From Glaciimonas sp. PAMC28666 (GTDB taxonomy: Bacteria; Pseudomonadota; Gammaproteobacteria; Burkholderiales; Burkholderiaceae_D), in contig NZ_CP070304.1 in NCBI RefSeq assembly GCF_016917355.1, positions 682,001-746,000 of the forward strand: a stretch of DNA of 64,000 nt. The letters run 5' to 3'. Position 1 is the stretch's first letter. Each line of letters starts with the position of its first letter. Positions 3,157 through 20,584 of the stretch are shown here, one piece after another. The notes beneath the pieces are model-generated. The model saw only the letters and a program-made list of their open reading frames with translations, ran no database searches and was not told where the DNA came from. The translations under genes were made by a program, and so were the position numbers.

Positions 3157-3256
3157 TTTTGCTCCTCTCGAATCAAATTTCTGTTACTTAAGTTTACGCA
3201 CTAATCCCTATGTTTACCAGGGTGAAGCGCCATGTTTTGTGCCAACCTGACGCGTT

Positions 3257-3961: not shown

Positions 3962-4059
3962 TGGGACGCCTTTTGATGTTGAACTTATAACTACCGTTAG
4001 GTAAGTTAGGTGAAGGTGAAGGTGCATCACTTCGTTAAAGCTTCGCTATGCGTTAGCCA

Positions 4060-4437
4060 TCAGTTCGCCATACCTTCGTCATGCGTTTGCCATCTGGCAG
4101 CCGCCCCTTTTATGCCGGAAACGGTCTTTGCTTCAGTGTTCTTTATTGCCTTTTCCAACTCCTCCCGCAGTCGGTTATTGATCCAGTATTCGGGAGTAAC
4201 GTGGAAAAATCTCTTCAAAACAGATTCGTTCGCCCTCCACTTCACCGGATTTAATCTACAAATGGCCTGCAACTGCTCTGGTTCGTTGGGTAAGCGGGCC
4301 TCAGACTTCCACGCGGCCATCAGCAGCAGCAAATACGCGCCATGCTGCTCGGTGTTCAGGTGCATGGTGTCGGACAGATAATCCGACACATAAAGCGGCA
4401 TCCAGATGTCGGCTTTTTTCTTCTTTGCGGCAGCCAT
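4060..4437 (-). CDS. DUF1376 family phage protein
   Basis: 125 residues. Residues 10-70 carry the DUF1376 pattern (IWMPLYVSDYLSDTMHLNTE, then GAYLLLLMAAW), found in phage and prophage replication-region proteins. The family is often longer, so this is a short version that ends right after the conserved part. It overlaps the upstream primase-like gene by one base at 4437, which fits a role in DNA replication initiation. Biochemical function is unknown. Confidence 0.75.
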   Translation of the reverse strand: MAAAKKKKADIWMPLYVSDYLSDTMHLNTEQHGAYLLLLMAAWKSEARLPNEPEQLQAICRLNPVKWRANESVLKRFFHVTPEYWINNRLREELEKAIKNTEAKTVSGIKGAAARWQTHDEGMAN

Positions 4438-6886: not shown

Positions 6887-7797
6887 TTTGCACCCCGCAG
6901 TTTTTCCAGTTCTTTTTCGGCCTTGATGGCCCGGTTCATCCAGTGCGTTACCTGCTTTGTCAGAGCAACCACCTTACCCTGCTGGCCGTTATATTGCGTT
7001 TCAGCACAATCAGCGATGGCCTTTTGACGCTTCACTTCGCCCATCGATGCCTTGACGCGATCATCAGAGTCGAACGCGCGGCCCATCATTTCGTTATCGG
7101 CCATGGTGCTTTTGAGATGATCCGCAACCTCCGCCAGTTGCTCGCGCAGGGCTTCGAGTTCGCTGATAGGTATGATGCATTCAGCATCTTGCTCGGCGTC
7201 AGGGATAACTGGATCTGGTGCTGCTTCGGGGTCGGACTCCGGTACCGGCGAATCATCGGTCGGCTGTACCTTGCCGATATTGGCGGTGTTTTGCTCGTAA
7301 ACTGTGCCGTTGCGTTCCACGGTGCGAATGGCCGGCGCTGGCCCATCTTCGGAAATCCGAAGATGGGCGCGATGGCGGGTCACTGTTTTGTCGCTGACGT
7401 TACAAGCTTTGGCGATGCCGTTATCGCTCCAAGACGACCATTCCGGGTCGTTCAGCAAGGTCATTACCGCACGGCGCTTATCATCGTTGGTGCGACGCAG
7501 GCCGTGAGAGGCGTTGGCACCGACCGAATACAGCACGGCATCGCGGCATGTGCCTTCACGCACTTCGGCCATGATTTCCATGGCGCCAGCTGCTTTATGC
7601 GCAAAGTAACGGTGAAAGCCATCGGCCAGCCAGTAATTTGCACCGTCGTAAAATGTGATTACCGGTGGCAGGTCGATTCCACTGCGGATCGCTTCCGTGT
7701 ATTCGGCAATGATTGACTCATTAAGAGCGGCGCGGGATTGAGTGCCGCCGTTAATGCAAACTGCGTTCAGTGGGATAGTGTAGATGTCGTGGATCAT
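6883..7797 (-). CDS. ParB N-terminal-domain protein (phage)
   Basis: 304 residues. Residues 5-95 form a ParB/Srx fold with the nucleotide-binding box in DGFHRYFAHKAAG, followed by an HTH at about 130-155 (GIAKACNVSDKTVTRHRAHL). The C-terminal third is acidic and then coiled-coil-like (about 205-300). No ParA partner is near. Stand-alone ParB-like proteins in phages act as DNA-binding/CTPase or nuclease-like accessory factors. The downstream helicase overlap suggests a replication role rather than partition. A perfect 13-bp inverted repeat lies inside the gene at 7341-7368. Confidence 0.8.
   Translation of the reverse strand: MIHDIYTIPLNAVCINGGTQSRAALNESIIAEYTEAIRSGIDLPPVITFYDGANYWLADGFHRYFAHKAAGAMEIMAEVREGTCRDAVLYSVGANASHGLRRTNDDKRRAVMTLLNDPEWSSWSDNGIAKACNVSDKTVTRHRAHLRISEDGPAPAIRTVERNGTVYEQNTANIGKVQPTDDSPVPESDPEAAPDPVIPDAEQDAECIIPISELEALREQLAEVADHLKSTMADNEMMGRAFDSDDRVKASMGEVKRQKAIADCAETQYNGQQGKVVALTKQVTHWMNRAIKAEKELEKLRGAK
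7341..7368. repeat. Perfect inverted repeat inside the ParB-like gene
   Basis: Two 13-base arms (GCCCATCTTCGGA and its complement) separated by AA. Perfect symmetry in coding DNA is unusual. It falls just after the HTH-coding part, so it could be a binding site for the encoded protein itself or an mRNA hairpin affecting translation. Confidence 0.7.
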
Positions 7798-8126
7798 GCC
7801 GACACCTCATTCAGCGAATACAACGCGACGCCGCTATGCGTGTAACCGTCGCTATCAACGGCGTTAACGGTCGTTTTGGTGATGGGCCAACCTTGCTTTT
7901 TTAGCTCCCATATGCGCGCGGCACACTGGGCTATCCCATGAGCGCGGAGATTGTAGGTGGTCTGGTCTGCGGCCTTCAGTAATGCTACGGCACGGGTGCG
8001 CTGATCTGCAGCGGCGGTAGATTTACTGGAAATCACCTTATAATTAGGCAGTTGTTTTTTTGGGGTCGCTTTTCCTTTGCCGGGGGCGACCTTTTTTGTT
8101 TTGGGCTTCCGTGGTACCCGGCTCAT
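7794..8126 (-). CDS. Hypothetical basic phage protein (110 aa)
   Basis: The first 30 residues are Lys/Arg/Pro-rich and likely disordered (RKPKTKKVAPGKG). The rest resembles a small winged helix: GIAQCAARIWELKKQGWPI followed by a VNAVDSDG turn, as in phage HTH proteins that judge 'hypothetical'. It overlaps the upstream AlpA-like gene by one base and the ParB-like gene by four. Nucleic-acid binding is inferred from charge and fold pattern only. Confidence 0.6.
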   Translation of the reverse strand: MSRVPRKPKTKKVAPGKGKATPKKQLPNYKVISSKSTAAADQRTRAVALLKAADQTTYNLRAHGIAQCAARIWELKKQGWPITKTTVNAVDSDGYTHSGVALYSLNEVSA

Positions 8127-8317
8127 TACGCGCCGCCCTGATTGATAAGGGCGCGAATGTCTTCAACTTTCCAGGCGGTGACACGCTCGGACAATTTAAT
8201 TCCCATAGGGAACTTACCCGATTTAATGCCGGCCCACCAAGTAGATTTAGAAACGGGATAAACGTGAAGAACAGCTGGCAAGCGGACGTAACCAGTATTA
8301 GGAAGGGGCTCAAACAT
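8126..8317 (-). CDS. AlpA-family phage transcriptional regulator
   Basis: 63 residues with the AlpA pattern: VRLPAVLHVYPVSKSTWWAG helix-turn-helix, the GKFPMGIKLSERVTAW wing and a terminal VEDIRALI helix. AlpA-type proteins activate or repress promoters of prophage operons. It is the first gene of the coupled AlpA-ParB-helicase-primase series. It lies downstream of a heptamer repeat array at 8384-8511, which could be its operator. Confidence 0.85.
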   Translation of the reverse strand: MFEPLPNTGYVRLPAVLHVYPVSKSTWWAGIKSGKFPMGIKLSERVTAWKVEDIRALINQGGA

Positions 8318-8383
8318 TTAATTACCTCATCAATTAAACCGCAGTGGACTTCATTGAGTCCGGTGCGTACGGTTTAACTATGA

Positions 8384-8511
8384 TTCGGCAATTTTTTCAT
8401 TTCCAATCTTTGGAAATATTATAAGTCTTTGAATCAATTGAATATTTTTATATTCTGATGTTCGGCAGCTGAGTTTTCCATTTCCTTGCCGAAGTTGCCG
8501 AACCTGCCGAA
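8384..8511. repeat. Heptamer array TTCGGCA/TGCCGAA (five copies)
   Basis: Two copies of TTCGGCA (8384-8390, 8461-8467) and three copies of its complement at 8487-8493, 8496-8502 and 8505-8511, the last three with an exact 9-base period. A 7-bp palindrome TTTCCAA/TTGGAAA lies in between (8400-8416). The array fills the gap between the 376-codon gene and the AlpA operon, so it is a probable operator or initiator-binding site. Confidence 0.7.
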
Positions 8512-8517
8512 TCGTAA

Positions 8518-9648
8518 TTAATCATCCGGCGGCGTCCAATAGCGCAAAACATGCCGGGCGATATACTCGCGATCCGGATAATTTCCACCATTGGTTTTTA
8601 CTTCATTTTCCGGTAATTTGCACCAATCCGCCACGTCACCTCTAATACTGTTTTTGGTAGGGTTGCACCCATTTTTTTTATGAAATCGCCAAATTTTCGT
8701 AGCGCCTTCCTGTGCTCTCATTATCCAATTTGATGTCGTAATCGTACTAGAGGTGTTTTCGATAGCTGGAATGCTGTTTGCAGTTATAACCAGCCCCGCC
8801 TGATTTGCAGCGATAGGATCGGGAAATCGAAATATCATTCGCGACTCATTATGCGCAAGCCATTCGTTCAAATCGTCCCAATATGCTTCCTCGTAATCTT
8901 TCCGAATATGCTTATTTAGAACATACGAATAATGATCCGTTTTCCCAGGCGCGTACGTCCGTAATACTCCAGTCTTGGCAGCATCAACTAGTTTGCTTAG
9001 CATCTGCATTGGATCTGCCTGTCCTCCGTTGCCTAATGCATTAGTGGCTTCTTGGAGTGTGTAGCGACCTGCGGCTATTTTTTCTTCTTCTTGCTTCTCA
9101 ATTAGCTTCGTCTCTGGGAATTCAGGGCCATGTAAGAAAAAACTAGGTGCCAACCATCGGCGCGCGTCTTCTACTGAAATAATTGTGTCAGATTCGAGCT
9201 TGGTAGCAGGCGCAAGATATTGAGTATGAGCCACCAATACACCATTTTTAATGGCATCGTCGATTAGATTAAAATGACTTGTCCTGACATTAATCCTTTC
9301 GTAGTGCGCATCTCCGACAGGGTCGGTAAATCGTACCTGTAAGTTCCATGTTGGCTTGTTCGGTGCATTATCGAAAGCGTCTGCATAACTGCCCCACTCA
9401 GCTTTTCCGATAACATTTTTTGATATTTTTGGCAGGTCGGACAATATTGTATTAAGCAAACTCCATTCTTCATCTGTAAGGTCACATTCGCTCCATTGGT
9501 TATCAGCCAGAGGAATATGCTTTTTGATCCCGCACAAGGTTGATGGCGTATCTGGTATCGGCACCAGCCCATTAGCTATCCAATCCGCCATATCCACGGC
9601 TAATACGGTTGTGGACTCAATTGGAATATTGATTATATGTTGCTGCAT
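8518..9648 (-). CDS. Unrecognised prophage protein (376 aa)
   Basis: No family recognised. Start set at 9648 (MQQHIINIP) because AAGGGA lies 6 bases before it; a Met 16 codons upstream lacks a ribosome site. The N-terminal half looks like a mixed alpha/beta fold with 'DxADWIANGLVP' and 'WSECDLTDEEW' segments. Around residues 195-270 is a helical part resembling a short HTH-like region (YTLQEATNALG) and 'LLSKLVDAAKTGVL'. The C-terminus (about 315-376) is rich in Trp and basic residues (IWRFHKKNGCNPTKNSIRGD) and reads like a winged-helix. It lies between two arrays of repeats or hairpins, so DNA binding is plausible. Confidence 0.65.
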   Translation of the reverse strand: MQQHIINIPIESTTVLAVDMADWIANGLVPIPDTPSTLCGIKKHIPLADNQWSECDLTDEEWSLLNTILSDLPKISKNVIGKAEWGSYADAFDNAPNKPTWNLQVRFTDPVGDAHYERINVRTSHFNLIDDAIKNGVLVAHTQYLAPATKLESDTIISVEDARRWLAPSFFLHGPEFPETKLIEKQEEEKIAAGRYTLQEATNALGNGGQADPMQMLSKLVDAAKTGVLRTYAPGKTDHYSYVLNKHIRKDYEEAYWDDLNEWLAHNESRMIFRFPDPIAANQAGLVITANSIPAIENTSSTITTSNWIMRAQEGATKIWRFHKKNGCNPTKNSIRGDVADWCKLPENEVKTNGGNYPDREYIARHVLRYWTPPDD

Positions 9649-9788
9649 ATACGTCCCTTCGACGCCCCTAAAGTGGAAGTCATGCCAACGCGGCAAGGGT
9701 ATCCGCGCTTTCGGCTGGCCGGCCTAGGCATGACTAAACTGGTATTGCGATTGGTGCAAAATTCTATACTTTGATTATAGGCTGCAAA

Positions 9789-10257
9789 GGGCACAAAGCC
9801 CGGACTTAGAAGTTACGAGTAGATTTGTAAATGTGGGCAGCGTCTACATTTGAAAGTCTTAATACCCGCGTTCCGGGCATTTACTCCCGGCCTTGACGAA
9901 CAAATATTCGTCGGACTACCGGCGGTTAAATCGCGTTTCTACCGCGACTTCACCTGCATGCCCGCAACTCGGGTATGTAGAAAGCCAGATACGGCAAAAT
10001 GCCGCATCAACAATTAATTACAAGTACACCGCCGGTGTACTTCGGTTCACGGAAAGGGCTGCGTTTGTAACGTTGCTGCTAGCGGCTTCTACATGTCCGG
10101 TGAGCGGACATTAAGTCCGCCTAAATGTGGACGCAGCCAGTATTTGTAAATGTGTATTCTCCGCACATTTATCATCTACCTACGGATGCAGCCCACATCT
10201 ATAAATCTTAATGCGGGGAAATCACGTATTTATACATGCGGACATTCCACGCATATA
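9789..10257. repeat. Array of about ten short hairpins in a gene-free region
   Basis: Small inverted repeats follow each other with few bases between. Clear ones: 9829-9851 (AAATGT arms), 9895-9912 (GACGAA), 9954-9980 (11-bp arms, two mismatches), 9988-10008 (8-bp, one mismatch), 10022-10042 (perfect AAGTACACC arms), 10092-10110 (ATGTCCG), 10114-10132, 10147-10171 (TAAATGTG), 10231-10257. Arms differ in sequence but keep 5-9 bp and short loops. No ORF in the 680 bases between the neighbouring genes is convincing. Candidate phage origin, or an RNA of repeated stem-loops. Confidence 0.6.
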
Positions 10258-10308
10258 GTTTCTAATTACGGAAAATCTGCTACTTCAGAAACAGGAAATT
10301 TTGGTATC

Positions 10309-11284
10309 GAAACCCCCTGTTTCATCCTGCTAGCCAATCAGGTTTGAAAGTATGTCATTGGTTTCGGTATCATCCATATGACCCGAGTCCGATAAGTAGC
10401 GGAACACGGCAATCGCCTCATCCTTTGTTTTGGCCCGAATGTGGGCTAGGCGACGGAATGTAAACCTTTCTCGCTCAGTTGATTCAACGGCCGGATCGCC
10501 AACACCATCAACAGCTGCTCGCATCTTGTACAAGCGATCCCAGTACGCCAGCTCATATAAGCAATCGCTCAATGTATGCGGCATCAGATCGGTGCGTGCT
10601 GTAAATCTCTTATCTACCTCGGCCTGGTCAAACTTCCAGCCCCTCTCACGCTCTAGGCCCTCAAGCGCCTCAATGCAAAGCTGCTCGACCGGCGTGCTTG
10701 CAAATAGGTCCTCGCCAAAGCGAGCGCTGGCCTCCTGCTGATTGCTCAGTTTTACGATAGACCGTTTTGCCAGCCCCTCAAGATCGGAAAAACCGAATGA
10801 TGCGAACGTTGCCGCAAATGACCCAGGGTGCATAGCAGTCAAATGCGCTGTGTAGCGCTTCTCCAGTTCGGCAAGCGGTGTTTTGATGCGACTAGCACCA
10901 AGCATAGCCTTTTCGATCAATGCAGCCTGGCCGGTGCTGATGACTGAGCGCAACCAAAGAAGTGCATCCACCTCCTTATCACCGGTAACGTCTTTCTGAG
11001 GCGGCAATTCCGGTACGGTCAGATCGGTACTGGTGCTTTCTCTGATAGCCGGCAGAGTGAACAACTCTCGGTGCTTCGGGTTATCGCGAAACTCTCCGGA
11101 TCGGGAGCATATCGTTTTCACGGTCCCCAGCGGTAGCGCGGTCATTTCAGCTACCTTGCTTAACGAATGGGTGCGGCGCAGGTCGAGAACTTGACGGCGT
11201 AATTGGTCGGGTAATTGGATTGCCATTAGGTATTGTGGTGAAACAGGGGGTTTCATCATGTCACACGTGAAACCCCCTGTTTCA
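10309..11284. repeat. Three copies of a 17-bp palindrome flanking the 309-aa gene
   Basis: The palindrome TGAAACCCCCTGTTTCA occurs at 11268-11284, in reverse orientation at 11239-11255, and (16 bases) at 10309-10324. The two upstream copies straddle the translation start of the gene at 10330-11259 and the third lies just past its stop. This is the pattern of an autoregulator's operator or an initiator site. Confidence 0.8.
10330..11259 (-). CDS. Prophage HTH protein, probable autoregulator or replication protein
   Basis: 309 residues (298 if the Met at 11226 is used). The first 11 codons are made of palindrome DNA, so the internal start MAIQLPDQL is a real alternative. Residues 16-50 are an HTH: LRRQVLDLRRTHSLSKVAEM, then LPLGTVKTICSRSG, like transposase or sigma-type HTHs. 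The rest is helical and has no recognised domain. Three 17-bp palindromes frame the gene, and two cover its start, so the protein probably binds them and controls its own expression. It sits upstream (in transcription order, downstream of the initiator gene) of the hairpin array. Confidence 0.6.
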   Translation of the reverse strand: MMKPPVSPQYLMAIQLPDQLRRQVLDLRRTHSLSKVAEMTALPLGTVKTICSRSGEFRDNPKHRELFTLPAIRESTSTDLTVPELPPQKDVTGDKEVDALLWLRSVISTGQAALIEKAMLGASRIKTPLAELEKRYTAHLTAMHPGSFAATFASFGFSDLEGLAKRSIVKLSNQQEASARFGEDLFASTPVEQLCIEALEGLERERGWKFDQAEVDKRFTARTDLMPHTLSDCLYELAYWDRLYKMRAAVDGVGDPAVESTERERFTFRRLAHIRAKTKDEAIAVFRYLSDSGHMDDTETNDILSNLIG

Positions 11285-11420
11285 ATCTTTCTTTATTGGT
11301 TGATCGGGTTTGAGCCTTAAGTCCTCGTCACTCAGCAACGTGCGCTTTCCTTTATTTGTGGTTTTGATGATCGAGCGCTTAGTCGCGTTTGTAACTCGGA
11401 TAAGAGCGCCGGGTAAAACG

Positions 11421-11593
11421 AAGTCCGATTTGAAATCCGACTTATCTCAAATCTTAGCGGGACCACTCCGATTCCAAATCCGACCAAGATTGCGTTGACC
11501 GCTAAGTGCCACCGAATACTAAAAGCCTGTGATCGATGACCGGGGTATATCCAAAACTGGATACACCTCGGCGATCATTCGGATTTGAAATCC
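11421..11593. repeat. Cluster of imperfect hairpins
   Basis: Gene-free DNA between the 309-aa and 165-aa genes. It holds GATTTGAAATCC twice inside symmetric surroundings (11421-11443 and 11581-11593), a long imperfect hairpin at 11535-11576 around TATCCA/TGGATA, and distant arms CTTAGCGG/CCGCTAAG at 11453-11506. It resembles the array at 9789-10257 in style. I see no gene in 11260-11747. Confidence 0.5.
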
Positions 11594-11747
11594 AGAAGGT
11601 GGATCAAGCCAACGAGGTACCGGAAACAGCTCCGAATTTTTGGTCGTCGTTTGGGCCGCGCGCACTTCTTTACCCCTTTTTCCCCCATAGATTCAAGGAC
11701 AAACCATACAGAGGAAAAACACTACAGATGGCAACCTCTAGAACATG

Positions 11748-11895
11748 TTCAGTTTCTGAAGTGATTAAAGAATAGGCACTCTCCTATGTGTAGTTGTTCA
11801 GAAACTGAAGTGATGAACCTGAAACTTTCAGCTCATCGCTTCAGAAACTGAACAAGCAGAGGCCTGTTTTGGAGCTAATCGCTTCAGATTCTGAA
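11748..11895. repeat. Iteron-like set: four copies of TTCAGNNNCTGAA
   Basis: Copies at 11748-11760, 11797-11809, 11840-11852 and 11883-11895. Starts are 49, 43 and 43 bases apart, close to four DNA turns, so they lie on one helix face. Each is extended on one side to GTTCAGNNNCTGAAGYGAT; two point one way and two the other. Copies 3 and 4 are inside the 3' end of the 165-aa gene. Typical of an initiator-binding origin. Confidence 0.75.
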
Positions 11896-12325
11896 CTACA
11901 GAAGTTAATTTTATCGGAGCCGATTTATTGGTCGCCTGAATCAGATTGATAAAGTTCAAGTACGGAAATTTAGCCGGATCTATATCCATTTCTCTATCGT
12001 AATCAAGTCTCCACCAAGTGAAGCCGACCCACTCCGCAGTGCTTGGTGGATGACCCTTGCGAGTCATCACCACAAACAGGCACTCCAATAACGCGCTCTT
12101 GGCGTCCAATAGCGTTTTACTGGATTTCCATCCACATTGCTTCATGACCGTTATCGATGGACACAACCGACCATTATTCTTGCCGGTGTACTGGCTCATC
12201 AGATCAATAGCAAGTTTTATCGCACTCGGTGGCAGGGTTTGCCATTCAGATGACTGGATAATGTCCTTGGGCAGCGATACAAACCCATACGGGATAGATC
12301 CCTTGGCGTAATCACGCTTTGCCAT
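11828..12325 (-). CDS. Probable phage replication initiator (winged-helix)
   Basis: 165 residues. Residues 10-90 read as a winged helix of the plasmid/phage Rep type: LPPSAIKLAIDLMSQYTGKN, then PSITVMKQCGWKSSKTLLDA as recognition part. The C-terminal 30 residues are encoded by iteron DNA (repeat copies 3 and 4 at 11840 and 11883), so origin and initiator gene overlap, as in lambda O or P22 gene 18 arrangements. The initiator role is inferred from this overlap and fold. It is coupled to the upstream 96-aa gene by a TAATG overlap. Confidence 0.6.
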   Translation of the reverse strand: MAKRDYAKGSIPYGFVSLPKDIIQSSEWQTLPPSAIKLAIDLMSQYTGKNNGRLCPSITVMKQCGWKSSKTLLDAKSALLECLFVVMTRKGHPPSTAEWVGFTWWRLDYDREMDIDPAKFPYLNFINLIQATNKSAPIKLTSVVQNLKRLAPKQASACSVSEAMS

Positions 12326-12615
12326 TAGAGGACCAAACAGAGAGGCGCAGCATATTTAAGTATGTAATCCATTTCGTCCTGATACCTCTTCTCTGATCGC
12401 TGGGTTAACTCCAGAATCATCACTCTGACTTTGTATGGATTTTTGCGGAACGACTTGAGCATTTCTTTTTCCTGACCCGTCAAAGCCAACTCGGAATTTC
12501 TTTTTCTTTTCACTAGGTCAATGCTAGATAGAAAGGGGCTGGCTATTGATGCTACTGCGACCGGCTTAGTCATCGGACGTTCACTTGTAGCCGTTTTCTT
12601 TGTGATAGTGGGCAT
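12325..12615 (-). CDS. Hypothetical phage protein (96 aa)
   Basis: Basic N-terminus (TKKTATSERPMTKP), then helical: SELALTGQEKEMLKSFRKNP and ILELTQRSEKRYQDEMDYIL. No family recognised. Overlaps its neighbours by one base on both sides. Being immediately before the probable initiator it may be an early regulator or replication accessory protein. Confidence 0.5.
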   Translation of the reverse strand: MPTITKKTATSERPMTKPVAVASIASPFLSSIDLVKRKRNSELALTGQEKEMLKSFRKNPYKVRVMILELTQRSEKRYQDEMDYILKYAAPLCLVL

Positions 12616-12791
12616 TATTTAACCCCTTTGTTGTGGTTAGCAATCAAGGCTAAACAAGCTTCCATCTCGCGTTTACTCTCAGTGGCCATGCGCGTACATA
12701 GCCTGATAATAAATTCTTTTTGGTCGTATTCCATTCCTCTAAACTGGCGCACGAGATCCGCTTCCACCCTCACGACTTTGATAGAAAGCAT
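12615..12791 (-). CDS. Small hypothetical phage protein (58 aa)
   Basis: Starts MLSIKVVRVEADLVRQFRGM and is followed by a charged helix. The gene fills the space between two genes exactly, with one-base overlaps on both sides (TAATG at 12617-12613 and at 12793-12789), which supports it being real in spite of its length. No function can be proposed. Confidence 0.6.
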   Translation of the reverse strand: MLSIKVVRVEADLVRQFRGMEYDQKEFIIRLCTRMATESKREMEACLALIANHNKGVK

Positions 12792-13117
12792 TATTTGCCC
12801 TCCTTGCCAGCGACATCATTGAACGCTTCAATGCGCTCGGCGGCAATTTCTCCCAGCATCTGCGACGATACAAGTGCAAGTCTCAGTAAGCGCTCCGTAT
12901 CCATGAGGTTGAGCGCTGGTGCCGTGCCGTTATCTCTGTTCATATGGCTCATATGTGCAACATCAATGCAGGTTTGAATACCTTGGCAAACATCCATCGT
13001 TAAGGCGCAAAAGTCCGCATGTTCATCATATTTAACCTGAGGATGTATCCATGAAAATGACTTGTGAGTAGCCGCTGGCCTTGGTGCCGGTGCTTTCTGG
13101 TAGATAGTCGTGGTCAT
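12791..13117 (-). CDS. Early phage protein, paralogue of the next gene upstream
   Basis: 108 residues, helical. The segment DVCQGIQTCIDVAHM and the C-terminal LMDTERLLRLALVSSQMLGE align with the upstream 106-aa protein (13117-13437: DIGKGIATILEIIEA and NDRASLLRMAITSASLLAEK). The last 40 residues of both end in a run of Glu/Ile/Phe/Asn. Similar small proteins occur in prophages under DUF3077-like labels. Function unknown. Confidence 0.6.
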   Translation of the reverse strand: MTTTIYQKAPAPRPAATHKSFSWIHPQVKYDEHADFCALTMDVCQGIQTCIDVAHMSHMNRDNGTAPALNLMDTERLLRLALVSSQMLGEIAAERIEAFNDVAGKEGK

Positions 13118-13437
13118 TATTTCCGCTCCTTCAGAAAACGATCGTTCTCGAACTCGATTTCGTCAGATGCTTTTTCTGCGAGTAACGACGCGGACGTAAT
13201 CGCCATTCTTAGCAGACTCGCCCGGTCGTTATCGTTGAACATTGGCTTTTCGTAGTGTTCATGCGCCGCTAACCCGGCCTCTATTATTTCGAGAATGGTT
13301 GCTATCCCTTTTCCTATATCCAGTGCAGCGGCCTGCAATGAATGATGGTGCTTCCATTCGCCGTATTGCCATTGGAAAGCCTTAAACGGTTCGGGTATGG
13401 CTTTGACTGGTGCGGGGGTGATGGTATTTTTAGCCAT
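13117..13437 (-). CDS. Early phage protein, paralogue of 12791-13117
   Basis: 106 residues. Same plan as its downstream neighbour: Pro/Ala-rich N-terminus, Trp/Gln/His-containing middle, and the helical pair DIGKGIATILEII and LLRMAITSASLLAEKASDEI. Tandem duplication followed by divergence is the simplest reading. Coupled to both neighbours by one-base overlaps. Confidence 0.6.
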   Translation of the reverse strand: MAKNTITPAPVKAIPEPFKAFQWQYGEWKHHHSLQAAALDIGKGIATILEIIEAGLAAHEHYEKPMFNDNDRASLLRMAITSASLLAEKASDEIEFENDRFLKERK

Positions 13438-13634
13438 TACATTGACTCCCCAGCAATGCCATACGCCACATTAGCCAGCTCAGAGAGCAGATAAGCTGCG
13501 TCGCTGATTACCGCGTGCTGGCTCTCAGAGGAACCGGCGATTAGTTCACTGACGGCAGATATTCCAGCCAACAAGGTCAGAAGTTTGGCGCCATCAGCGA
13601 AGTGGTCTTTGAGTGAATTAGTGGTGGCGCTCAT
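13437..13634 (-). CDS. Early phage protein (65 aa), related to the two below it
   Basis: Start set at 13634 (MSATTNSLK), where ATGA overlaps the stop of the upstream gene. The pattern LLTLLAGISAVSELI, then ISDAAYLLSELANVAYGIAG, repeats the 'helix, gap, LLxELA helix' plan of the genes at 12791 and 13117, so it may be a third, shorter paralogue. Confidence 0.5.
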   Translation of the reverse strand: MSATTNSLKDHFADGAKLLTLLAGISAVSELIAGSSESQHAVISDAAYLLSELANVAYGIAGESM

Positions 13635-14014
13635 GCCGCACCACCGACCAGCGCATTCAGCTTGTCCTGCATGGCTTCGCGCTCGCAATCGATCGTATTT
13701 TCCATGTCGAACGCCACACGAACACCGACTCGCGCTAACTTTTGTATCGCGTTAAGTCTCTTGAGCAGTTCCCCACCGGCCATGCCATCGGTATGAGCCA
13801 GTGCTTCAAGAGCAACCATAATGGGAGTGATGTTGTTACTGATGCTGCAGTAGCCGACCTCCGCTACCCAGACTGCGTCTCTGGCTCCCTCCAGGGCGGT
13901 TGACCGCTGTAGCTTTGCAGATGTCGCTATTTGCTCTGATTCAGCTGTGTGTTGCTTTGCGCTAGCCGATGGTTTTTGATGTACTTCATTTGCAGTGCTA
14001 TTATTAGTAACCAT
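13631..14014 (-). CDS. Early phage protein (127 aa)
   Basis: N-terminal 40 residues are polar and likely disordered. Then come two helices (ITPIMVALEALAHTDGMAGG and LLKRLNAIQKLARVGVRVAF) that again resemble the plan of the following three genes. AGAGGT lies about 8 bases before the ATG. It is the first of the run of four small helical proteins. Confidence 0.55.
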   Translation of the reverse strand: MVTNNSTANEVHQKPSASAKQHTAESEQIATSAKLQRSTALEGARDAVWVAEVGYCSISNNITPIMVALEALAHTDGMAGGELLKRLNAIQKLARVGVRVAFDMENTIDCEREAMQDKLNALVGGAA

Positions 14015-14092
14015 TTGAACAAACCTCTATTTTGTGAATTTGGTAGGCCTGCGAGGGTGCTAGTAACACTCTCGCTTGCCGCTTTTACATCC

Positions 14093-14269
14093 TCAATTAA
14101 TACTCGTACCCGGGCCAACTCGCGCCAATTCATTCGTTCTACTTTGCTCTAGGCGAACAACAATCTCTGCATTTAAGCTGCGATGATTTTCGACAGCCCG
14201 ATTTCTAAGATAAGCCTTTAATTCATCCTTCATACGTATTCCAAGTGGCGCAAGTTTTATGTTGTCCAT
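14093..14269 (-). CDS. Arc/Mnt-family repressor, 58 aa, divergent from 14375
   Basis: Reads MDNIKLAPLGIRMKDELKAY and continues to a ribbon-helix-helix core ending in SLNAEIVVRLEQS, the signature of Arc-type repressors ('R-S-x-N-xEI' motif). The beta strand is about residues 4-12 and the helices about 14-26 and 30-44. Only 58 codons, yet the match is clear. It faces the second Arc-type gene across a 105-base operator region and probably forms with it the lysogeny or early-gene switch, like Arc and Mnt of phage P22. Confidence 0.8.
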   Translation of the reverse strand: MDNIKLAPLGIRMKDELKAYLRNRAVENHRSLNAEIVVRLEQSRTNELARVGPGTSIN

Positions 14270-14288
14270 GAAATCACCCTTTCTTTAA

Positions 14289-14375
14289 TAGCTACATTAT
14301 GTAATGACTACAGATTGAAATCATTACATATTGAAGTCACATGGTCAAGGTTTTTTTAATTACACTATGTAGCTA
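14289..14375. promoter_or_regulatory. Operator region between the two Arc-type genes
   Basis: Two nested inverted repeats. The outer arms TAGCTACATTATGTAAT (14289-14305) and ATTACACTATGTAGCTA (14359-14375) match in 15 of 17 positions, and the right arm reaches the ATG of the plus-strand gene. The inner pair TATGTAATGA/TCATTACATA (14298-14329) is perfect. Shared half site is ACATNRTGTAAT-like. Expected binding sites for one or both repressors. Confidence 0.75.
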
Positions 14376-14620
14376 TGGAAAATTCAAATAAATCAGCCAA
14401 ATTACCTATCTCTAATGTCGCCCCGTTTGGCCTGCGCATGCAGCCTGAGCTAAAAGCCCAATTACAAGCGGCGGCAGATCGAAACGAGCGCAGCATGAAC
14501 TCTGAAATAACCGCCCGGTTAAATCAAAGCTTCGAATTAATTGCAGGGTTGAAAGATGCGGAAATAAATGCCCTCGCAGAAAAGATAGCGACTCGACTCG
14601 GTGAAAAAATAAAGAAATAA
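14375..14620 (+). CDS. Arc-family DNA-binding protein (81 aa)
   Basis: Ribbon-helix-helix in residues 14-50: PFGLRMQPELKAQLQAAADR and NERSMNSEITARLNQSF, the classic Arc pattern. The C-terminal tail (EINALAEKIATRLGEKIKK) may be a tetramerisation helix, as in Mnt. It is the only plus-strand gene of the prophage in this window. Its start codon lies inside an operator arm, so the mRNA leader is very short or absent. Confidence 0.85.
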   Translation: MENSNKSAKLPISNVAPFGLRMQPELKAQLQAAADRNERSMNSEITARLNQSFELIAGLKDAEINALAEKIATRLGEKIKK

Positions 14621-14644
14621 TTGATTAGGATGACCGAGCTTATC

Positions 14645-14669
14645 GAGCCCCCCCCCCGTTTCGGGGCTC
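14645..14669 (+). terminator. Hairpin after the Arc-type gene
   Basis: GAGCCCC and GGGGCTC arms around a 11-base C-rich loop, 25 bases after the stop codon. It lacks a long T run, so termination may be partial. Confidence 0.5.
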
Positions 14670-14897
14670 TCAGGGAATGCTGACACAATGGTGCGCAACT
14701 AAACCAGACTAGAGGCTAGCCGAATGGATCGAGATCGCGGGAAGACTTAGAATGATAGCCCCACATCGCTATCGTATAGATGACGCAATCGAGCACTAAA
14801 AAGGCTTAAGGAATTATTTTTGCATCCATGTTTGCATCCACAATGTCTGTTTTAAAACCATGAACCCTTTATACATAAGGGTTACAGACGATTATTA

Positions 14898-14916
14898 GAT
14901 TCCCCCTTTCCCGCCA
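14898..14916 (+). other. tRNA 3'-end-like piece, probable prophage attachment core
   Basis: GATTCCCCCTTTCCCGCCA resembles the 3' half of a T arm plus acceptor strand with G at position 73 and an encoded CCA, as in serine-type tRNAs. No 5' part of a tRNA is present upstream. It is followed by a strong terminator of the kind placed after tRNA genes. It marks the likely chromosome-phage junction. Confidence 0.4.
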
Positions 14917-14922
14917 GAACAT

Positions 14923-14965
14923 AGCGCATAAGTCTTTGATTTCAAAGACTTATGCGCTTTTTTTA
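14923..14965 (+). terminator. Strong rho-independent terminator
   Basis: Perfect 17-bp stem (AGCGCATAAGTCTTTGA and its complement) with a 2-base gap, followed by eight T. It is probably the native terminator of the tRNA gene used as attachment site. Confidence 0.85.
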
Positions 14966-15169
14966 TGGGCGCTCGATGGGACTAAATAGGGTATATTGGC
15001 GCTGAAATGACAGCTTTTATGCAAGCATTTTTATTTAGTTAATTGACAAACAATAGCGCCAATAAATTTTAATCTATAAAAGCAGGTTAAGGCACGACGG
15101 AATGAAGCGTGACCAGGTTAATACGATTGTCATCCACTTGGTAGATCACATTTGCTAATTTGTACAAAA

Positions 15170-15215
15170 GTCAGCGTCTGTCAGTTTTGGCACAATATCA
15201 CCCGTTATGATCAAG
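15170..15215 (+). repeat. Dispersed repeat A, copy 1
   Basis: A 46-base block beginning GTCAGCGTCTGTCAGTTTT and ending CCCGTTATGATCAAG. A diverged second copy lies at 23965-24011. The internal doubling of GTCAG and the sharp ends suggest an insertion-sequence terminus or a small non-autonomous element. I see no transposase next to it. Confidence 0.6.
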
Positions 15216-15290
15216 CCAAGTTTTGACTTCACCTTGACAGGTGACCATTGCGGCAGCGCATACCAATTAACGGGAAATTTATATTGTTTA

Positions 15291-15346
15291 CGCCCGTTTG
15301 GTAAGCGCTTGACCTTTCGGTCAGCCAATCACCGTGACCGACAGCA
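15291..15346 (+). repeat. Direct repeat B, copy 1 (left flank of island)
   Basis: 56 bases; shares with 17845-17896 the blocks CGCCCG, GGTAA/GTAA-CGC, CGGTCAGCCAAT, AC-GTGAC and GCA in the same order, with one 3-4 base gap. The two copies bracket the 483-codon unknown gene and two phage-type pseudogenes. Confidence 0.65.
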
Positions 15347-15384
15347 GACGGCCACGAAGAGACGGTCACGGGTGTCGCTTCGGA

Positions 15385-15425
15385 TGACCGCTCTTCGGCC
15401 TTAGCGGTCACCCAGGCTTTTTTTT
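15385..15425 (+). terminator. Terminator-like hairpin
   Basis: TGACCGCT/AGCGGTCA 8-bp stem with a 10-base loop (15385-15410), then CCCAGGC and eight T. The surrounding DNA carries more complementary CGTGACCG/CGGTCACG segments. It does not follow a visible gene, so it probably belongs to a lost one. The rest of 14966-15597 shows no gene. Confidence 0.55.
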
Positions 15426-15597
15426 CGGAAGACTCTTGCAGACTGATAGCGGACGTCCAGGATCGACGTCAGATCGACAGCACTTGGCCAAGATCAAACC
15501 TCAACCAGCTCACACCGACTTCGTTTTCAATTCAACTTGCAGCCGGGATGGGCAACGGATTACTCTATTATCTTGAGAGCACTCGATAGGAATCTCA

Positions 15598-17049
15598 TTG
15601 AATACGATCGGTGACATGGTAACAGGCAACGCCTTCGTTGATCAGGCCCGAGCGCGGCTTAGAGAGCTAAGCGTTGAGTCAGTCCTTGATGCTTGCTTTT
15701 ATTGCATCAGAAGAATGCCAAACGATGGCTACGAATGGTATGCGAGAACACCTTTCATTACGCTTCTAATGATTAAATGGGCTGTGGAATTGTGGGATTC
15801 GAATACGCGACGAAGGACATGTACTGGCTCCGACTTCGACTTTGTGGCCCAGAGCATTTGGGACGCAGTAAGCAAATTACATCGGCCAACGCGACCGTCT
15901 ATCTTCATGCGCCGGACGGCTTTCCAACAGATCTGGTATCAACGGCCATTTGACGTCGGTGCGATACCACGACAGGCAATGTTATTTGGTGAACTCATGG
16001 CGGACGAACAGGTCGTCCGCGAGTTCGCAGCTAGTACGGGCATCGGGCCTCGCAATTTCGTTCGACAGCTTGCTCGAATGGCTTGCCAAATAGGCGACCT
16101 CCGTGGACTTCCGGCGCTTACCAAGATGCGGCCGGAACCTCGGTCAGAGGACGCCCGCGACTGGCCGCTAGTGACGCAGTTTCTTGTCTTCAATTTGCAG
16201 GAAGTCCATCGACGCATTGCGATTCTGGCGCAGTACGGGACACCTCGTGAAGTAGAGCTTTGTGAACAATCTCCGCTGATCCGAATGCCATTCATTCGCA
16301 CATTTCGCGGTGATGAGTGCATCCACCACAAGGTCCTCGAACATAGTCTTGAAACCGCGCTCTACGATGTCCTTCGGGACCGCGGTGCTGAAGCGTTCAT
16401 GCGCTCATTTGGACCCGCCTTCGAGTCCTATGTCGGCCGAGTTCTTAATGAACTTCATTACAGGGTCATCCGCGAGCACGAATTGCAGAAGCTTTTGAAT
16501 GGAAAAGGGAAATGTGTTGATTTCGCGGTGATAAGTGATGAAGTGTTGCTACTGGTCGATTCGAAAGGAATTGAAGGACACTACGACGAGCTTTATCATA
16601 ACCTCTCCGAAGTGCTCACACAAAAACTTCGTACGACGGCTTTGCATGCGGCAGATCAGGCGGTCGAGACCGTTAGACGGCTACCCGATTCGCTTAGACG
16701 GCCGCTGATTATTTTCATATGCGTCACCTACAAGCAGCTTAACATCGGTGACGGCGATGCCCTGCGCGATCTGACAATTGACACGAAGGAATGGGATGCC
16801 ACTCGTTGGCACGAGAGAAGTCTGCCTCCCTCACAAATGTTCACTATCTCCATCAGCGAACTTGAGACGCTGTGCGGAGTTATACGCGCTGGCGTACCTG
16901 TTGAAAATATCTTCCGAAAGATTCTTGCCGATAATGGGTCGCCCGAAAGCAGCAAGCTGCTGTTCGAACAGCACATGGCCGAGTACGGCTCGGTGGATAT
17001 TCCAGAGTATACCTATACTGCTGCCGACCAGTTGTGTGGTAAAGGCTAG
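15598..17049 (+). CDS. Unknown protein with PD-(D/E)xK nuclease-like core (483 aa)
   Basis: Start is TTG at 15598, supported by AGGA seven bases upstream; an ATG at 15616 is the alternative. No named family recognised. Residues 260-345 fit a PD-(D/E)xK nuclease core: a helix with Glu276 (AFESYVGRVLNEL), then Asp308 in KCVDFAVISDE, strand VLLLVD and Asp321-Ser-Lys323 (VDSKG). The N-terminal 250 residues are mostly helical, with DGYEWYARTPFI near the front; the C-terminus (about 415-480) is also helical. The gene stands alone next to the prophage border with remnants of other mobile genes, and codon use looks different from the housekeeping genes. A single-gene anti-phage or mobile-element nuclease is the favoured guess; it is not proven. 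Confidence 0.7.
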   Translation: MNTIGDMVTGNAFVDQARARLRELSVESVLDACFYCIRRMPNDGYEWYARTPFITLLMIKWAVELWDSNTRRRTCTGSDFDFVAQSIWDAVSKLHRPTRPSIFMRRTAFQQIWYQRPFDVGAIPRQAMLFGELMADEQVVREFAASTGIGPRNFVRQLARMACQIGDLRGLPALTKMRPEPRSEDARDWPLVTQFLVFNLQEVHRRIAILAQYGTPREVELCEQSPLIRMPFIRTFRGDECIHHKVLEHSLETALYDVLRDRGAEAFMRSFGPAFESYVGRVLNELHYRVIREHELQKLLNGKGKCVDFAVISDEVLLLVDSKGIEGHYDELYHNLSEVLTQKLRTTALHAADQAVETVRRLPDSLRRPLIIFICVTYKQLNIGDGDALRDLTIDTKEWDATRWHERSLPPSQMFTISISELETLCGVIRAGVPVENIFRKILADNGSPESSKLLFEQHMAEYGSVDIPEYTYTAADQLCGKG

Positions 17050-17104
17050 ATGCCCGCGATCTGAATTCAAAATTTGGCGTGACTTTCTCACAGGCGCTCT
17101 CACG

Positions 17105-17244
17105 ATGAGTCAGGTCGCACGGGATCCAGGCTGGGCACGGGAGAGTTTATATAAAGCACTTCCTGTGAAGGTAACCCGGAATTTAGCACCATTCTTAAAG
17201 TGATGAAGGCGCTCGGGCTCGAGTTACATGCCAGCCCGGCGTAA
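17105..17244 (+). pseudogene. Addiction-module antidote protein, HTH remnant
   Basis: The 3' part of an antidote gene of the HigA-like 'putative addiction module' family. MSQVARDPGWARESLYKAL in one frame continues in the next frame as GNPEFSTILKVMKALGLEL and ends at TAA 17242-17244. A one-base deletion near 17160 joins the two frames. No toxin gene is found beside it and the 5' half is missing, so it is dead. Confidence 0.7.
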
Positions 17245-17257
17245 GCAGTTTTACCTC

Positions 17258-17826
17258 ACACCCGCTTAAATGCCGAAATAGCGACTCCCGAATCAACGCG
17301 TGATCTTCAGCACGAGAACCGGGTAAAGGTCGGGCGGCATAACGCATTTCCGCCCCCTTTTCCCCTGACCCGGTCCTTGAGTCCTTCCTGATGACCCGGG
17401 CAATACACGCCACGCTTCGGTGGAATCCCGCTGCCATTGATTGGCATCTTGCAAGATTTTAAGGCTCTTTTGTTTGCGCAGCTTGGTGAACATGGCGGCC
17501 TCTTGTCGCTTGATGCGTCCGATTTTACCCCACAGATTTTTACGTTTCTTGCGCGCCGTGTAGGTTTGGCCGTCCGGTGCTTGCTGGCTGGTAATGCGTT
17601 TTACCTGGCTGCGGCGCAAATCCTGCGCGATTTGTTTGTTCACGGCGCTGCGCTGTGCCAGCAGCAGTTTTGCCAGCGGTGCATCCGCCCAGTCTTCGAT
17701 AGCCTGTGGGTCGGAGCCAGGTCTTATAAAGAACGTATCGCCAAGTAAAATCACGCGCTTGATATCAAGCTCCGCGCTGATCTTCTTGGGAAGTGGCTGT
17801 TTTTTATTGGCTTCAGTTTGCAGCAC
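17258..17826 (-). pseudogene. P2-type tail completion protein S, frameshifted remnant
   Basis: From about 17712 downward the reading is that of P2-like gpS: AIEDWADAPLAKLL, then IAQDLRRSQVKRITSQQAPD, then GRIKRQEAAMFTKLRKQKSL. Near 17430 the frame breaks; the expected C-terminus continues in other frames as VACIARV and then EMRYAARPLPGS with ALIRESLFRHL. At least two frameshifts are needed. The first 37 codons of the open frame do not belong to the family. It witnesses a second, P2-like prophage that has been lost here. Confidence 0.75.
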
Positions 17827-17844
17827 GAGAATGTCGCAAATGAC

Positions 17845-17896
17845 CGCCCGGTAAACGCGGAACCTCCCGGTCAGCCAATTACAGTGACAGATTGCA
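17845..17896 (+). repeat. Direct repeat B, copy 2 (right flank of island)
   Basis: 52 bases, diverged copy of 15291-15346 in the same orientation. The pair defines a unit of about 2.6 kb. Confidence 0.65.
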
Positions 17897-17997
17897 CAAG
17901 GCGAAAAGCGGATGTGTTATCGCTATATAAACAACCCTAACGCACCCGCCTTGCTGAGAATCAAAGAAGTTAAGAAATGCTAACCCAAGAAAAACAC

Positions 17998-18246
17998 CTA
18001 CCGATAGAAAGATTCGACCCTGCCTTTTACTTTAGTCATCAAGGGATTGCCCTTCCGATCGAGCGCCTTTCCGGCCGGGACTTTAATCCATCCCTCGCTA
18101 ATGCAGTATTCCTCAACATCGAAACGCTCTTTATCGTTAAGCTTGATACCAACATCATGCTCAAATATGGCAGCATTGTGGTGGGGACTACGAGGATCGA
18201 CTGAGAGCCGATCAGGAAGTGGGGGGCGGTTTTGGGTATCGTTCAT
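17998..18246 (-). CDS. DUF3297 family protein
   Basis: 82 residues from MNDTQNRPPLPDRLSVDPRS. The family blocks are all present: DRLSVDPRSPHH near the front, KLNDKERFDVEEYCISEGWI in the middle and GNPLMTKVKGRVESFY at the end. DUF3297 is a short, widely conserved protein of unknown function in Proteobacteria, at its normal length here. Start set at 18246, as an upstream Met five codons earlier adds non-family residues. It is the first chromosomal-type gene right of the mobile strip. Confidence 0.85.
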   Translation of the reverse strand: MNDTQNRPPLPDRLSVDPRSPHHNAAIFEHDVGIKLNDKERFDVEEYCISEGWIKVPAGKALDRKGNPLMTKVKGRVESFYR

Positions 18247-18529
18247 GGCTGCAATTATCAACTATAAGACTAATCAAAACAATTTTTTTGCGTGGTTTCG
18301 CTAAATGACCTGGTCGACCGCAACTCATTCACTCCCTTGCGACGTTGAGCGCGAACAAATCGTCATTTGGAAAGCTACCTCCGGCAACAGGAACGAAAGT
18401 ATCTATATTTGGAACCTGCATAGCTCGCCACCTGGTGGGGGAAAGTCCGGCAATGTGACTGGAAAGCAATTTACTTTACCCGTGCCAAGATCGAATGGTC
18501 GCTCCGTAAATGAGTAAAGTGCCCATGCG

Positions 18530-18924
18530 TTATACCTGCCAACCTTTGTATACGAATTCCAGGCTCTACCCGTCAGTGTCCAGTACATTTGCTGCGTAAT
18601 AGCGCGGGTCATAATGAAGCCTCAACCCAGGTTCGCCATTGTCACTACCACCAGAGGCCAGGGCCGCTGCGTAGGCTTTATCGACGGCGGCTTGGCTGCG
18701 TGCGATAAATCCAATGTGCGCGGCACGACTGTCCACTACACCCTGGCGCAACCAAAAGGACATGCGGCCAAGAGTCCCAAATCCCTTGAGGTCTGGATGC
18801 CCGGCGGCCCATCTTTACCATCGTAATCGAGTCGATTCGCTATGCCAAGCGGCGCAAGGGCGACAGTGTAAAACGCTATAGAGCGATCAATCTCGCTGAC
18901 TGATAGGAATACATGGTCCAACAT
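18530..18924 (-). pseudogene. VOC (glyoxalase/bleomycin-resistance) family protein, broken
   Basis: The N-terminus MLDHVFLSVSEIDRSIAFYT is intact. Around 18808 the frame shifts (original would read HPDLKGFGTLGRMSFWLRQG), and the second frame meets a stop in LDTDG*SLEFVYKGWQ, where family members have Tyr; TAC to TAG explains it. So one frameshift and one nonsense mutation. Such proteins are metal-binding lactoylglutathione-lyase-like enzymes of about 130 residues; this copy cannot make a full one. Confidence 0.85.
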
Positions 18925-18942
18925 GACGTTCTTCCTTTCATA

Positions 18943-19110
18943 TCAAATGGCGAAGCCGCCAGCGACTTCGATAGTTTGTGCATTTATCCAGCCACTGTCT
19001 TCCGTTAAAAGGCTCACGATTACTTTCGCAACTTCCTCTGGTTCTCCAACTCGCCCCAGAGCGGTTTGAGAAGCCAATAGCGACTCGAATTCGTCACTAA
19101 CGGCACTCAG
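18943..19110 (-). pseudogene. Short-chain dehydrogenase, 3' fragment
   Basis: Only the last 55 codons remain: [20 protein letters not shown], then SLLTEDSGWINAQTIEVAGG, the typical end of an SDR oxidoreductase. The catalytic Tyr-x-x-x-Lys and the cofactor site are missing. The cut at about 19110 is fused to the AraC remnant on the other strand. It lies 18 bases upstream of the VOC gene, so both were probably one operon. Confidence 0.8.
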
Positions 19111-19111
19111 T

Positions 19112-19306
19112 CCGGTTCAATATCAAAAGCAAATTCGCCTGCTAAAAACGCGTACTTTGCTTATTTCTGCCGGTTACAGTGTTACCGCAGCAGCCTATAA
19201 AGTCGGCTATCAGAGTTCAACCCAGTTCAGCAGAGAATACGCACGAGAGTTTGGACAACCTCCGGCGAAAGATGCCGCGAGGCTTGCTCTGGCAATAAGG
19301 CCCTAA
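19112..19306 (+). pseudogene. AraC-family regulator, 3' fragment
   Basis: The last 64 codons of an AraC-type DNA-binding domain: [52 protein letters not shown], then stop at 19304-19306. The first HTH and sensor part are gone. Probably the former divergent regulator of the SDR-VOC pair; one deletion removed the 5' ends of both genes. Confidence 0.8.
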
Positions 19307-19579
19307 ACTCAAACGCAAGAAAAGCTTCGGCATCCGTCCGCTTCGGGAAGAAAGCAGGGCTTGCCATTGTGACCTCGGCGGCTCCCTCTTAGAACCTATA
19401 TTGCTGATCTGGTCGGAGAGCGTGATTTTCCGCATTGGATTCGAAGCAAGAGATGGCGAGCGCGCATGATATCCAGGCCACGGAACCGGCCGCCCTATTA
19501 TCCGTCGTGTTTTGTGTCGTGATTGTCTAGTGAACGTACTTTGCGCGGCACGGTGCATTATCTGGCCGCAACCGGTAAG

Positions 19580-20584
19580 CTAGCGCCGCAATCCGGCTGG
19601 CAACGGCAATCCTTCCGCCAGCGCAAGTCGCTCCATCGCCGACTCCAGCAGCCCACGCGCCTGTGCAACGGCGAGAGTGAGTGGCGCGTGTACATGCGCA
19701 TCGTCCGGATTGCGCGAACCGCATTGCTCACTGTAGCGCTCAAAACTATTCAACATCAATAAAATTTCGGCCAAATGGCGCGGGCAGTCGCAACCGATAT
19801 TATTGGCGACGGAGACCAGCGTCGTCAAGGCCTCGTCATCCAGTCGACGCGGTAACGCTGGCATCGTTGACGAACCAGCAGCGGCACGTTTAGAAGGCAG
19901 AGGTGGCTGCGCCGCCAGTGCGGCATCGCACAGGACAACAAATTCTATCGGGTCAGCCGGCATGCGAACCACCAGATAACCTTGCTTACGCAATGTGCGC
20001 AGTGTCGAAGCCCCGCAAAAACGGTAAACCACGATCACGGCGGCGATGCCGGTGATCTGACGCAAAACGGTAATCAAGGGTACAGCGCCGTCTTCCAACT
20101 CCGGCACTTCGATCACCAATACGTCGGCATCCACCTTGCCGAGTGCGTCCGAGCTTGCGTCAAGGTTTCGTGCTGCGTGCACCACTTCCAATGCCCAATT
20201 AGCAGGTCCACCGCTTGTCATCCGTTGCTCGAGATTTTCTCCGACTACCATAACCCGTATAGGACGTTCGCGCGCCTCACCAATTGATATTAGCGGGTCG
20301 CCGAGCGCCAACAACTCTTCACTCGTCAAATTGGCCAGCGCGCCGATCTGATGGCCCTGATCCACCAAATTTCGTATTAGCTGTAGCCGGTGTACTTGTT
20401 CGCGCGAATAAAGGCGTTGACCATTTGGAGAGCGGTCCGGCGTCGATATACCATAGCGGCGCTCCCACACCCGTAGCGTTTCTACTGAGAGACCCGCCAT
20501 GCTGGCGGCACGCCCACTGCGATAAATGCCAATATCAAGCGCCGCATCTTCAAGATCGGCATTGACGTATTCAAGCTTTGTCAT
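19580..20584 (-). CDS. MerR-family transcriptional regulator, long form
   Basis: 334 residues. An N-terminal MerR winged helix at 18-88: GIYRSGRAASMAGLSVETLR, VWERRYGI, then NGQRLYSREQVHRLQLI. The remaining 240 residues look like a Rossmann-like domain (IRVMVVGENLE, DADVLVIEVPELED, AAVIVVYRF), as in MerR proteins with a B12-binding-like sensor, but I see no cobalamin motif DxHxxG. Effector unknown. Upstream (20585-20871) there is only a TTCGGC/GCCGAA hairpin at about 20689 and no clear promoter. Confidence 0.85.
   Translation of the reverse strand: MTKLEYVNADLEDAALDIGIYRSGRAASMAGLSVETLRVWERRYGISTPDRSPNGQRLYSREQVHRLQLIRNLVDQGHQIGALANLTSEELLALGDPLISIGEARERPIRVMVVGENLEQRMTSGGPANWALEVVHAARNLDASSDALGKVDADVLVIEVPELEDGAVPLITVLRQITGIAAVIVVYRFCGASTLRTLRKQGYLVVRMPADPIEFVVLCDAALAAQPPLPSKRAAAGSSTMPALPRRLDDEALTTLVSVANNIGCDCPRHLAEILLMLNSFERYSEQCGSRNPDDAHVHAPLTLAVAQARGLLESAMERLALAEGLPLPAGLRR

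Follow-up and report, generated by a model that had tools for sequence, protein, structure and literature searches.

The gene at positions 15598-17049 (forward strand) of the window, the 64,000-nucleotide stretch of the Glaciimonas sp. PAMC28666 genome analysed here, can with good probability be read as encoding a GAPS1-type defence against phages that consists of a single protein. It is located among remnants of mobile elements and was probably introduced by such an element. GAPS1 stands for GMT-encoded anti-phage system 1, and its founding paper, said to be that of Mahata and co-workers from 2024, reportedly presents it as cargo of the Gamma-Mobile-Trio element. Judged from its sequence, the window gene is a divergent gene of GAPS1 type that falls outside the GapS1 subfamily by the threshold set by NCBI, and it is found in decayed phage DNA. 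The first-pass annotation had proposed a defence gene, and our sequence comparisons support this proposal through the homology with GAPS1 and through the mobile elements and defence genes that accompany the relatives. The profile search, fold prediction and inspection of homologue neighbourhoods that it had suggested yielded a nuclease core, conserved residues and a match to a defence family; none of the contrary outcomes that it had named (a fold lacking this core, loss of the residues in homologues, a confident hit to an unrelated family) was found.

The long ORF had been described as intact, as is indeed the case: it encodes 483 aa from a TTG start, contains no internal stops, and is preceded by the AGGA ribosome-binding site that had also been noticed, at 15588-15591 (+), six bases 5' of the TTG. 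The closest homologue (L002) comes from a metagenome assembly that bears the label Opitutaceae; it shares 73% identity with the window protein along the full length, and its TTG start is at the same place. Comparing the two genes gave a dN/dS of 0.19 (Nei-Gojobori; dN 0.18, dS 0.93), which indicates purifying selection on the frame of the window gene, this value being an average over both lineages that a very recent loss would escape. Based on the identity over the whole length, the common start and this dN/dS, we conclude that a chance frame is ruled out. We did not recognise any promoter for the gene, since the region holds 2 promoter-like sites as compared with 2.9 by chance, and neither is directly upstream of the gene on its strand.

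The single NCBIfam match of the window protein was to NF047931 (antiphage_GapS1; 297.7 bits, E 1.5e-88), and it extends end to end, from residue 18 to 459 of 483 against positions 2-455 of 455 in the profile. Hence, a gene that had been called impossible to place in a named family can be placed next to GAPS1. Since the score is 22 bits short of the curated cut-off of 320 bits, we file the protein as a sister clade of GapS1 and not as a member of the subfamily. When seven homologues were scored against the same model, six obtained 393-510 bits and are over the cut-off; four of these six come from plasmid records, and the other two from a faecal phage contig and a P2-like phage of Klebsiella. 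The Tahibacter homologue (L003), with 318.9 bits, is just under this cut-off. Furthermore, NF047931 is matched at E <= 0.001 by all 20 members of our homologue alignment A2. In a tree of 25 proteins, the window protein forms one clade with L002, L054, the Tahibacter and Lysobacter homologues and the viral contig L015 (support 100/100), and this clade aligns with the other 19 GAPS1-like proteins over 449 columns (E 4.9e-57). The window protein is therefore like GAPS1 (NF047931) in its full-length homology, in the PD-(D/E)xK catalytic residues, which it has in common with the homologues over the cut-off, and in having homologues on mobile elements. It is unlike GAPS1 in belonging to a clade of its own, with 42-73% identity to the five relatives inside the clade and 15-25% to the GAPS1-like proteins compared outside it, and in scoring below the NCBI cut-off.

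Alignment A2 excludes the exact copies among the 27 viral loci (L018, L023-L026, L028 and L031), as well as L027, L038 and the short L035 and L039, and the tree additionally excludes L020, L022, L033, L036 and L041; the rows excluded from the tree are 93-100% identical to some retained row. Two partial matches from the family-profile search, L013 and L014, are in neither. As for other family models, PADLOC returned no family at E <= 1 for the window protein and none for eight homologues, and Pfam returned for the window protein a sub-threshold match to the NERD domain alone (PF08378; residues 275-366, E 0.24, 12.3 bits against a gathering cut-off of 22.1). The Pfam matches of nine homologues were scattered, weak and below the cut-offs, and the one to an orthopox family (E 0.009) was taken as chance; similarly, a proteasome chain (E 0.042), the one result of a PDB sequence search with the A2 profile, was rejected. 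NF038001 (HYExAFE family) matches three of the 20 members of A2, with a best E of 1.5e-5, and the window protein is not among them. PHROG 14259 and 34771, both listed with unknown function, match GAPS1-like proteins, the former over the whole length. No Gamma-Mobile-Trio name appeared among the NCBIfam matches of nine neighbours in the window, a collection that may not hold such models.

The gene is rare among related bacteria. The protein search found it in one of the 195 relative genomes, which is the window's own, and so there is no sign of long retention. The family profile gave three of these 195 genomes, the two besides the window's own being partial matches, and the A1 profile gave four of the 369 genomes of the class, again including the window's own. 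Outside these genomes, a Klebsiella prophage protein (L005) is described in PMC12774648 as structurally GAPS1-like, with a TM-score of 0.87, and the same protein was recovered here among the homologues of the window protein. Moreover, according to a meeting report (PMC12908700), GAPS1 of K. pneumoniae gives protection against many phages.

The AlphaFold2 model computed on A2 (pLDDT 83.8, pTM 0.86, with a weak loop at 327-342) predicts a helical N-terminal half (residues 1-243; 15598-16326, +), a putative sensor or regulator, and a PD-(D/E)xK nuclease core (residues 264-377; 16387-16728, +), for which the restriction-type nucleases matched in VIA-align are further evidence. The core is laid out as a helix carrying Glu276, three strands, a helix carrying Gln354 and a further strand, with Asp308 just before the second strand and Asp321 and Lys323 at the end of the third. 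The first-pass annotation had proposed this fold from Glu276, Asp308 and Asp321-Ser-Lys323; all these residues are found where it had put them, and in the model the four named ones are in place within a nuclease core. Counting the window protein itself among 25 proteins, Glu276 (codon 16423-16425, +) is Glu in 24, Asp308 (16519-16521, +) and Lys323 are invariant, and position 321 is Asp in 23 and Glu in two (Asp321-Ser-Lys323, 16558-16566, +). The exception at position 276 is a Gln in L054, a 54.5% relative, which we count against the reading as a GAPS1-type defence. Gln354 (16657-16659, +), on the following helix and absent from the earlier residue list, is conserved in all 25.

Among solved structures, VIA-align ranked the defence protein Upx first (PADLOC PDLC02221; structure 9wuf; Z 10.3, 346 residues aligned, rmsd 5.3), followed by the BspD6I nickase (9.9), R.BspD6I2 (8.9), FokI (7.8), McrC (7.5), Bse634I (7.4), SgrAI (7.4) and HindIII (7.3). 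Since a Z below 8 can reflect a common arrangement, we use the lower rows as a consistent set and not singly. Foldseek on the full model likewise put Upx first (E 1.4e-4), but with a low TM-score of 0.26, and BFVD gave no match under E 0.001. BspD6I, FokI and McrC have the nuclease core fold and the order of residues seen in the window protein; these restriction-type nucleases differ from it in showing no above-threshold sequence similarity and in aligning mainly with its C-terminal half.

The neighbourhoods of the homologues point to mobile DNA. Homologues occur in 17 phage records out of 50,697, and Klebsiella accounts for 16 of the 17. The neighbourhood survey covered 22 of the 27 viral loci (L015, L029, L035, L039 and L040 were left out) together with L005 and L006, and in 20 of these 24 loci an integrase of the P2-like L005 type is found upstream in the same direction, within about 60 bp in 17 and at about 1.1 kb in three (L034, L036, L037). 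As the Klebsiella-type P2-like loci are closely related, these 20 do not represent 20 independent events. An ORF of 210-226 aa precedes the integrase at the place of the L005 repressor, and we recognised it as the repressor by size and place from the L005 annotation, not by comparison. The annotated phage L005 shows a four-base overlap between the integrase and the gene, with the gene beyond the integrase in the direction of the record's end. P2-like phages are reported in PMC9122126 to have hotspots of anti-phage genes, including one in Vibrionaceae that is located between the repressor and the integrase.

In plasmid and ICE homologues, the gene is found among other accessory genes. Within the window clade, a tyrosine recombinase is directly downstream of the Tahibacter gene, and an integrase is about 5 kb away from the Lysobacter one (L004). 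Genes resembling known defences are found in several of these loci, which were noted without a control for their frequency beside random genes: a CBASS-type set 3.7-6.2 kb away in Tahibacter (SAVED peptidase effector, E 9.4e-70; E2, 6.7e-43; cyclase, 1e-149), a convergent TIR effector-like gene 75 bp downstream in L002 (E 1.1e-22) and a ThsB-like TIR gene about 5 kb away in L054 (E 2.1e-42). L055, outside the clade, has as its neighbour an HNH-type protein with a match to a candidate family of PADLOC (E 2.1e-36). The viral contig L015 (IMGVR_UViG_3300048927_000638) carries, at a distance of 3 kb, a Zot gene of filamentous phages. Two further observations concern these loci. The Lysobacter locus also holds ORFs of 1429 and 1607 aa (743-5032 and 9296-14119), in which NTPase and nuclease motifs were seen by eye and for which Pfam and PADLOC gave no match. 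In L015 (844-8918), an adjoining 721-aa protein with no family match and a FIESK motif aligns weakly with GAPS1 (P 0.009).

In the window itself, the gene had been placed among phage genes, between a prophage attachment site and a P2-type remnant. The phage surroundings and the P2 remnant were confirmed, while the attachment site was not. On the left (538-14620), we found phage-type genes by Pfam-type matches and by eye, namely PriCT_2/Toprim and helicase genes over the cut-offs, a ParB_N match below its cut-off, an Arc-like repressor and, by eye, a lytic transglycosylase-like gene. On the right, a remnant of a P2-type tail completion gene (gpS; 17293-17826, minus strand) matches PF05069 (Phage_tail_S) over 17293-17823, with 51.8 bits where the cut-off is 24.3, and, just below the cut-off, TIGR01635 (37.4 against 37.65 bits), and parts of it have DNA copies of 78-80% elsewhere in the genome. 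Neither 14860-14985 nor 14621-15597 has a second copy in the 5.23 Mb genome, aside from an inverted-repeat self-match that corresponds to a terminator-like hairpin (14923-14958, +) in the region tested as attachment site, and the window contains no tRNA. A blastn search with positions 14000-20000 gave no match to phages.

The gene is bracketed by a diverged 53-nt direct repeat with 75% identity (15300-15352 and 17850-17902, +), whose left copy ends 245 bp before the start codon and whose right copy begins 800 bp after the stop. Its local alignment score of 41 exceeds the highest value obtained from 300 shuffles (35), and a search of the 5.23 Mb for the 20-nt core that tolerated two mismatches found those two places only (control 0). 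This repeat may be a trace of the arrival of the gene or of duplicated phage DNA.

If the window protein is a GAPS1-type defence, its helical half would be the part that recognises a sign of infection, and before that point it would restrain the nuclease. Once released, the core would cut nucleic acid with the help of a divalent metal, for which Asp308 and Asp321, and probably Glu276 as well, would serve as ligands. Phage production would thereby cease, either because the phage DNA is destroyed or because nucleic acid of the cell itself is damaged, as in abortive infection.

Given the phage-type genes to the left and the P2 tail gene to the right, the protein could instead be a nuclease of the prophage itself, serving recombination, packaging or degradation of host DNA and left after decay, with no role in defence. 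The many homologues in prophages would agree with this explanation. However, homologues are also found on plasmids, in an ICE and near defence genes, the gene in P2-like phages comes after the integrase and away from the replication genes, and the named family to which it is related, GAPS1, is anti-phage; we thus regard a leftover prophage nuclease as unlikely. A solitary restriction-like enzyme that cuts particular or modified DNA sites would account for the core, which matches those of FokI, BspD6I, McrC, SgrAI and HindIII. This explanation, which is compatible with defence and does not exclude it, appears quite improbable because the homology with GAPS1 includes the helical half too and because the adjoining ORFs are too small for a methyltransferase partner (no ORF exceeds 180 aa on the flanks at 14.6-15.6 and 17.05-19.5 kb).

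Directly downstream of the gene, three-frame translation revealed by eye the remnant of a broken small gene (17087-17245, +) that resembles a HigA-like antitoxin gene, as would be expected if the protein were the toxin of a toxin-antitoxin pair with a decayed antitoxin. We consider such a pair very improbable, since this downstream frame is broken while the gene is under purifying selection, and since within 1 kb no neighbouring ORF, and hence no small partner, is common to more than two of the six clade loci. Indeed, among 147 ORFs (at least 30 aa) in that range, a single pair was similar between loci at E <= 0.01, consisting of an ORF in the DUF3297 region of the window and one in the Tahibacter locus (L003 7458-7721; 27 aa at 59%), and this likeness may be due to chance or may denote a partner. 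The DUF3297 gene of the window (17998-18261) is intact and recurs at another place in the genome as a DNA copy of 83%. Finally, the decayed surroundings and the lack of a clear promoter might suggest a recently dead or inactive copy, to which we assign a very slight chance, as the frame is intact, all catalytic residues are present and dN/dS is low against the nearest relative.

Sequence comparison indicates that the GAPS1 family is likely homologous with the C-terminal half of Upx. With two Upx proteins, hhalign against GAPS1 gave a probability of 15 (P 0.0017), and with seven Upx-like proteins the GAPS1 profile matched the Upx C-terminal half with a probability of 85 and an E of 6e-6, a value that belongs to one comparison and not to a database search. 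The motifs fall in register, with the Upx 'FE ... ID ... IECK' on the GAPS1 'FE ... VD ... VDSK'. The match scores 58.9, against 20.9 at most in 40 column-shuffled controls. It stays when the window clade is left out (6.8e-6), and the window clade alone gives P 0.07 against Upx; therefore, the link comes from the wider GAPS1 family. Upx without its nuclease gives P 0.0027 against GAPS1, as compared with 0.64 for reversed Upx, and the match of the Upx N-terminal half to the GAPS1 profile is weaker (P 0.0065 in one comparison and 0.0034 in another).

On the structural side, the full model was aligned by VIA-align to residues 33-526 of the Upx chain. The N-terminal half of the window protein (1-243), folded alone, is helical at low confidence (pLDDT 68.9) and was placed by VIA-align on residues 764-1084 of the 9wuf chain (Z 9.0, 196 residues; next best 3.9), in a range, under about 13, where for helical models Z may reflect a common arrangement. 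The two matches consequently fall on different parts of Upx. Foldseek with this half gave a best E of 1.1, and 9wuf was not among the matches listed, so that the Upx match of the half rests on VIA-align. As a suggestion, Upx could be a tandem of two GAPS1-like units, a duplication that the comparison of its N and C halves by sequence did not show (P 0.16). With slightly less than even confidence, we propose that GAPS1 and Upx form one superfamily built of a helical module and a PD-(D/E)xK nuclease, in which Upx would carry this unit twice in a row, its first copy lacking a functional active site, and in which the window protein would head a third, unnamed branch.

Upx is the best solved-structure match of the window protein, and its C-terminal half is probably homologous, nuclease motif included, with the GAPS1 family as a whole. 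The two are unlike in size, with six of the seven Upx-like proteins measuring 1,206-1,269 aa and the Sinorhizobium one 787 aa, against 483 aa, and the window protein has no match to the PADLOC Upx model (E <= 1). The Upx-like proteins (L060-L066) come from two genomes, a viral contig and four plasmids (Bosea, Sinorhizobium, Deinococcus). Upx was found in none of the 369 genomes of the class and in two of 398 genomes of the phylum. We also observed that the Tahibacter locus (L003 3484-5250) encodes a 588-aa neighbour related to the Upx C-terminal half (hhalign E 2e-5; PADLOC Upx E 0.0013), in which nothing was detectable against the GAPS1 profile (P 0.12). Our literature search, which misses most subscription journals, found no paper naming both Upx and GAPS1 and no description of a mechanism for either.

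Altogether, an ORF that had no placement becomes a candidate defence gene that can be put to the test, and the GAPS1 kind of protein is shown to extend beyond the reach of the NCBI threshold and of the PADLOC library of 2023. To a specialist, the link with Upx may be the unexpected part. If the two do share a unit, this would mean a common way to keep a nuclease silent and then to release it. Should the link hold, the 9wuf structure may guide work on the mechanism of GAPS1, and both systems could be studied as one.
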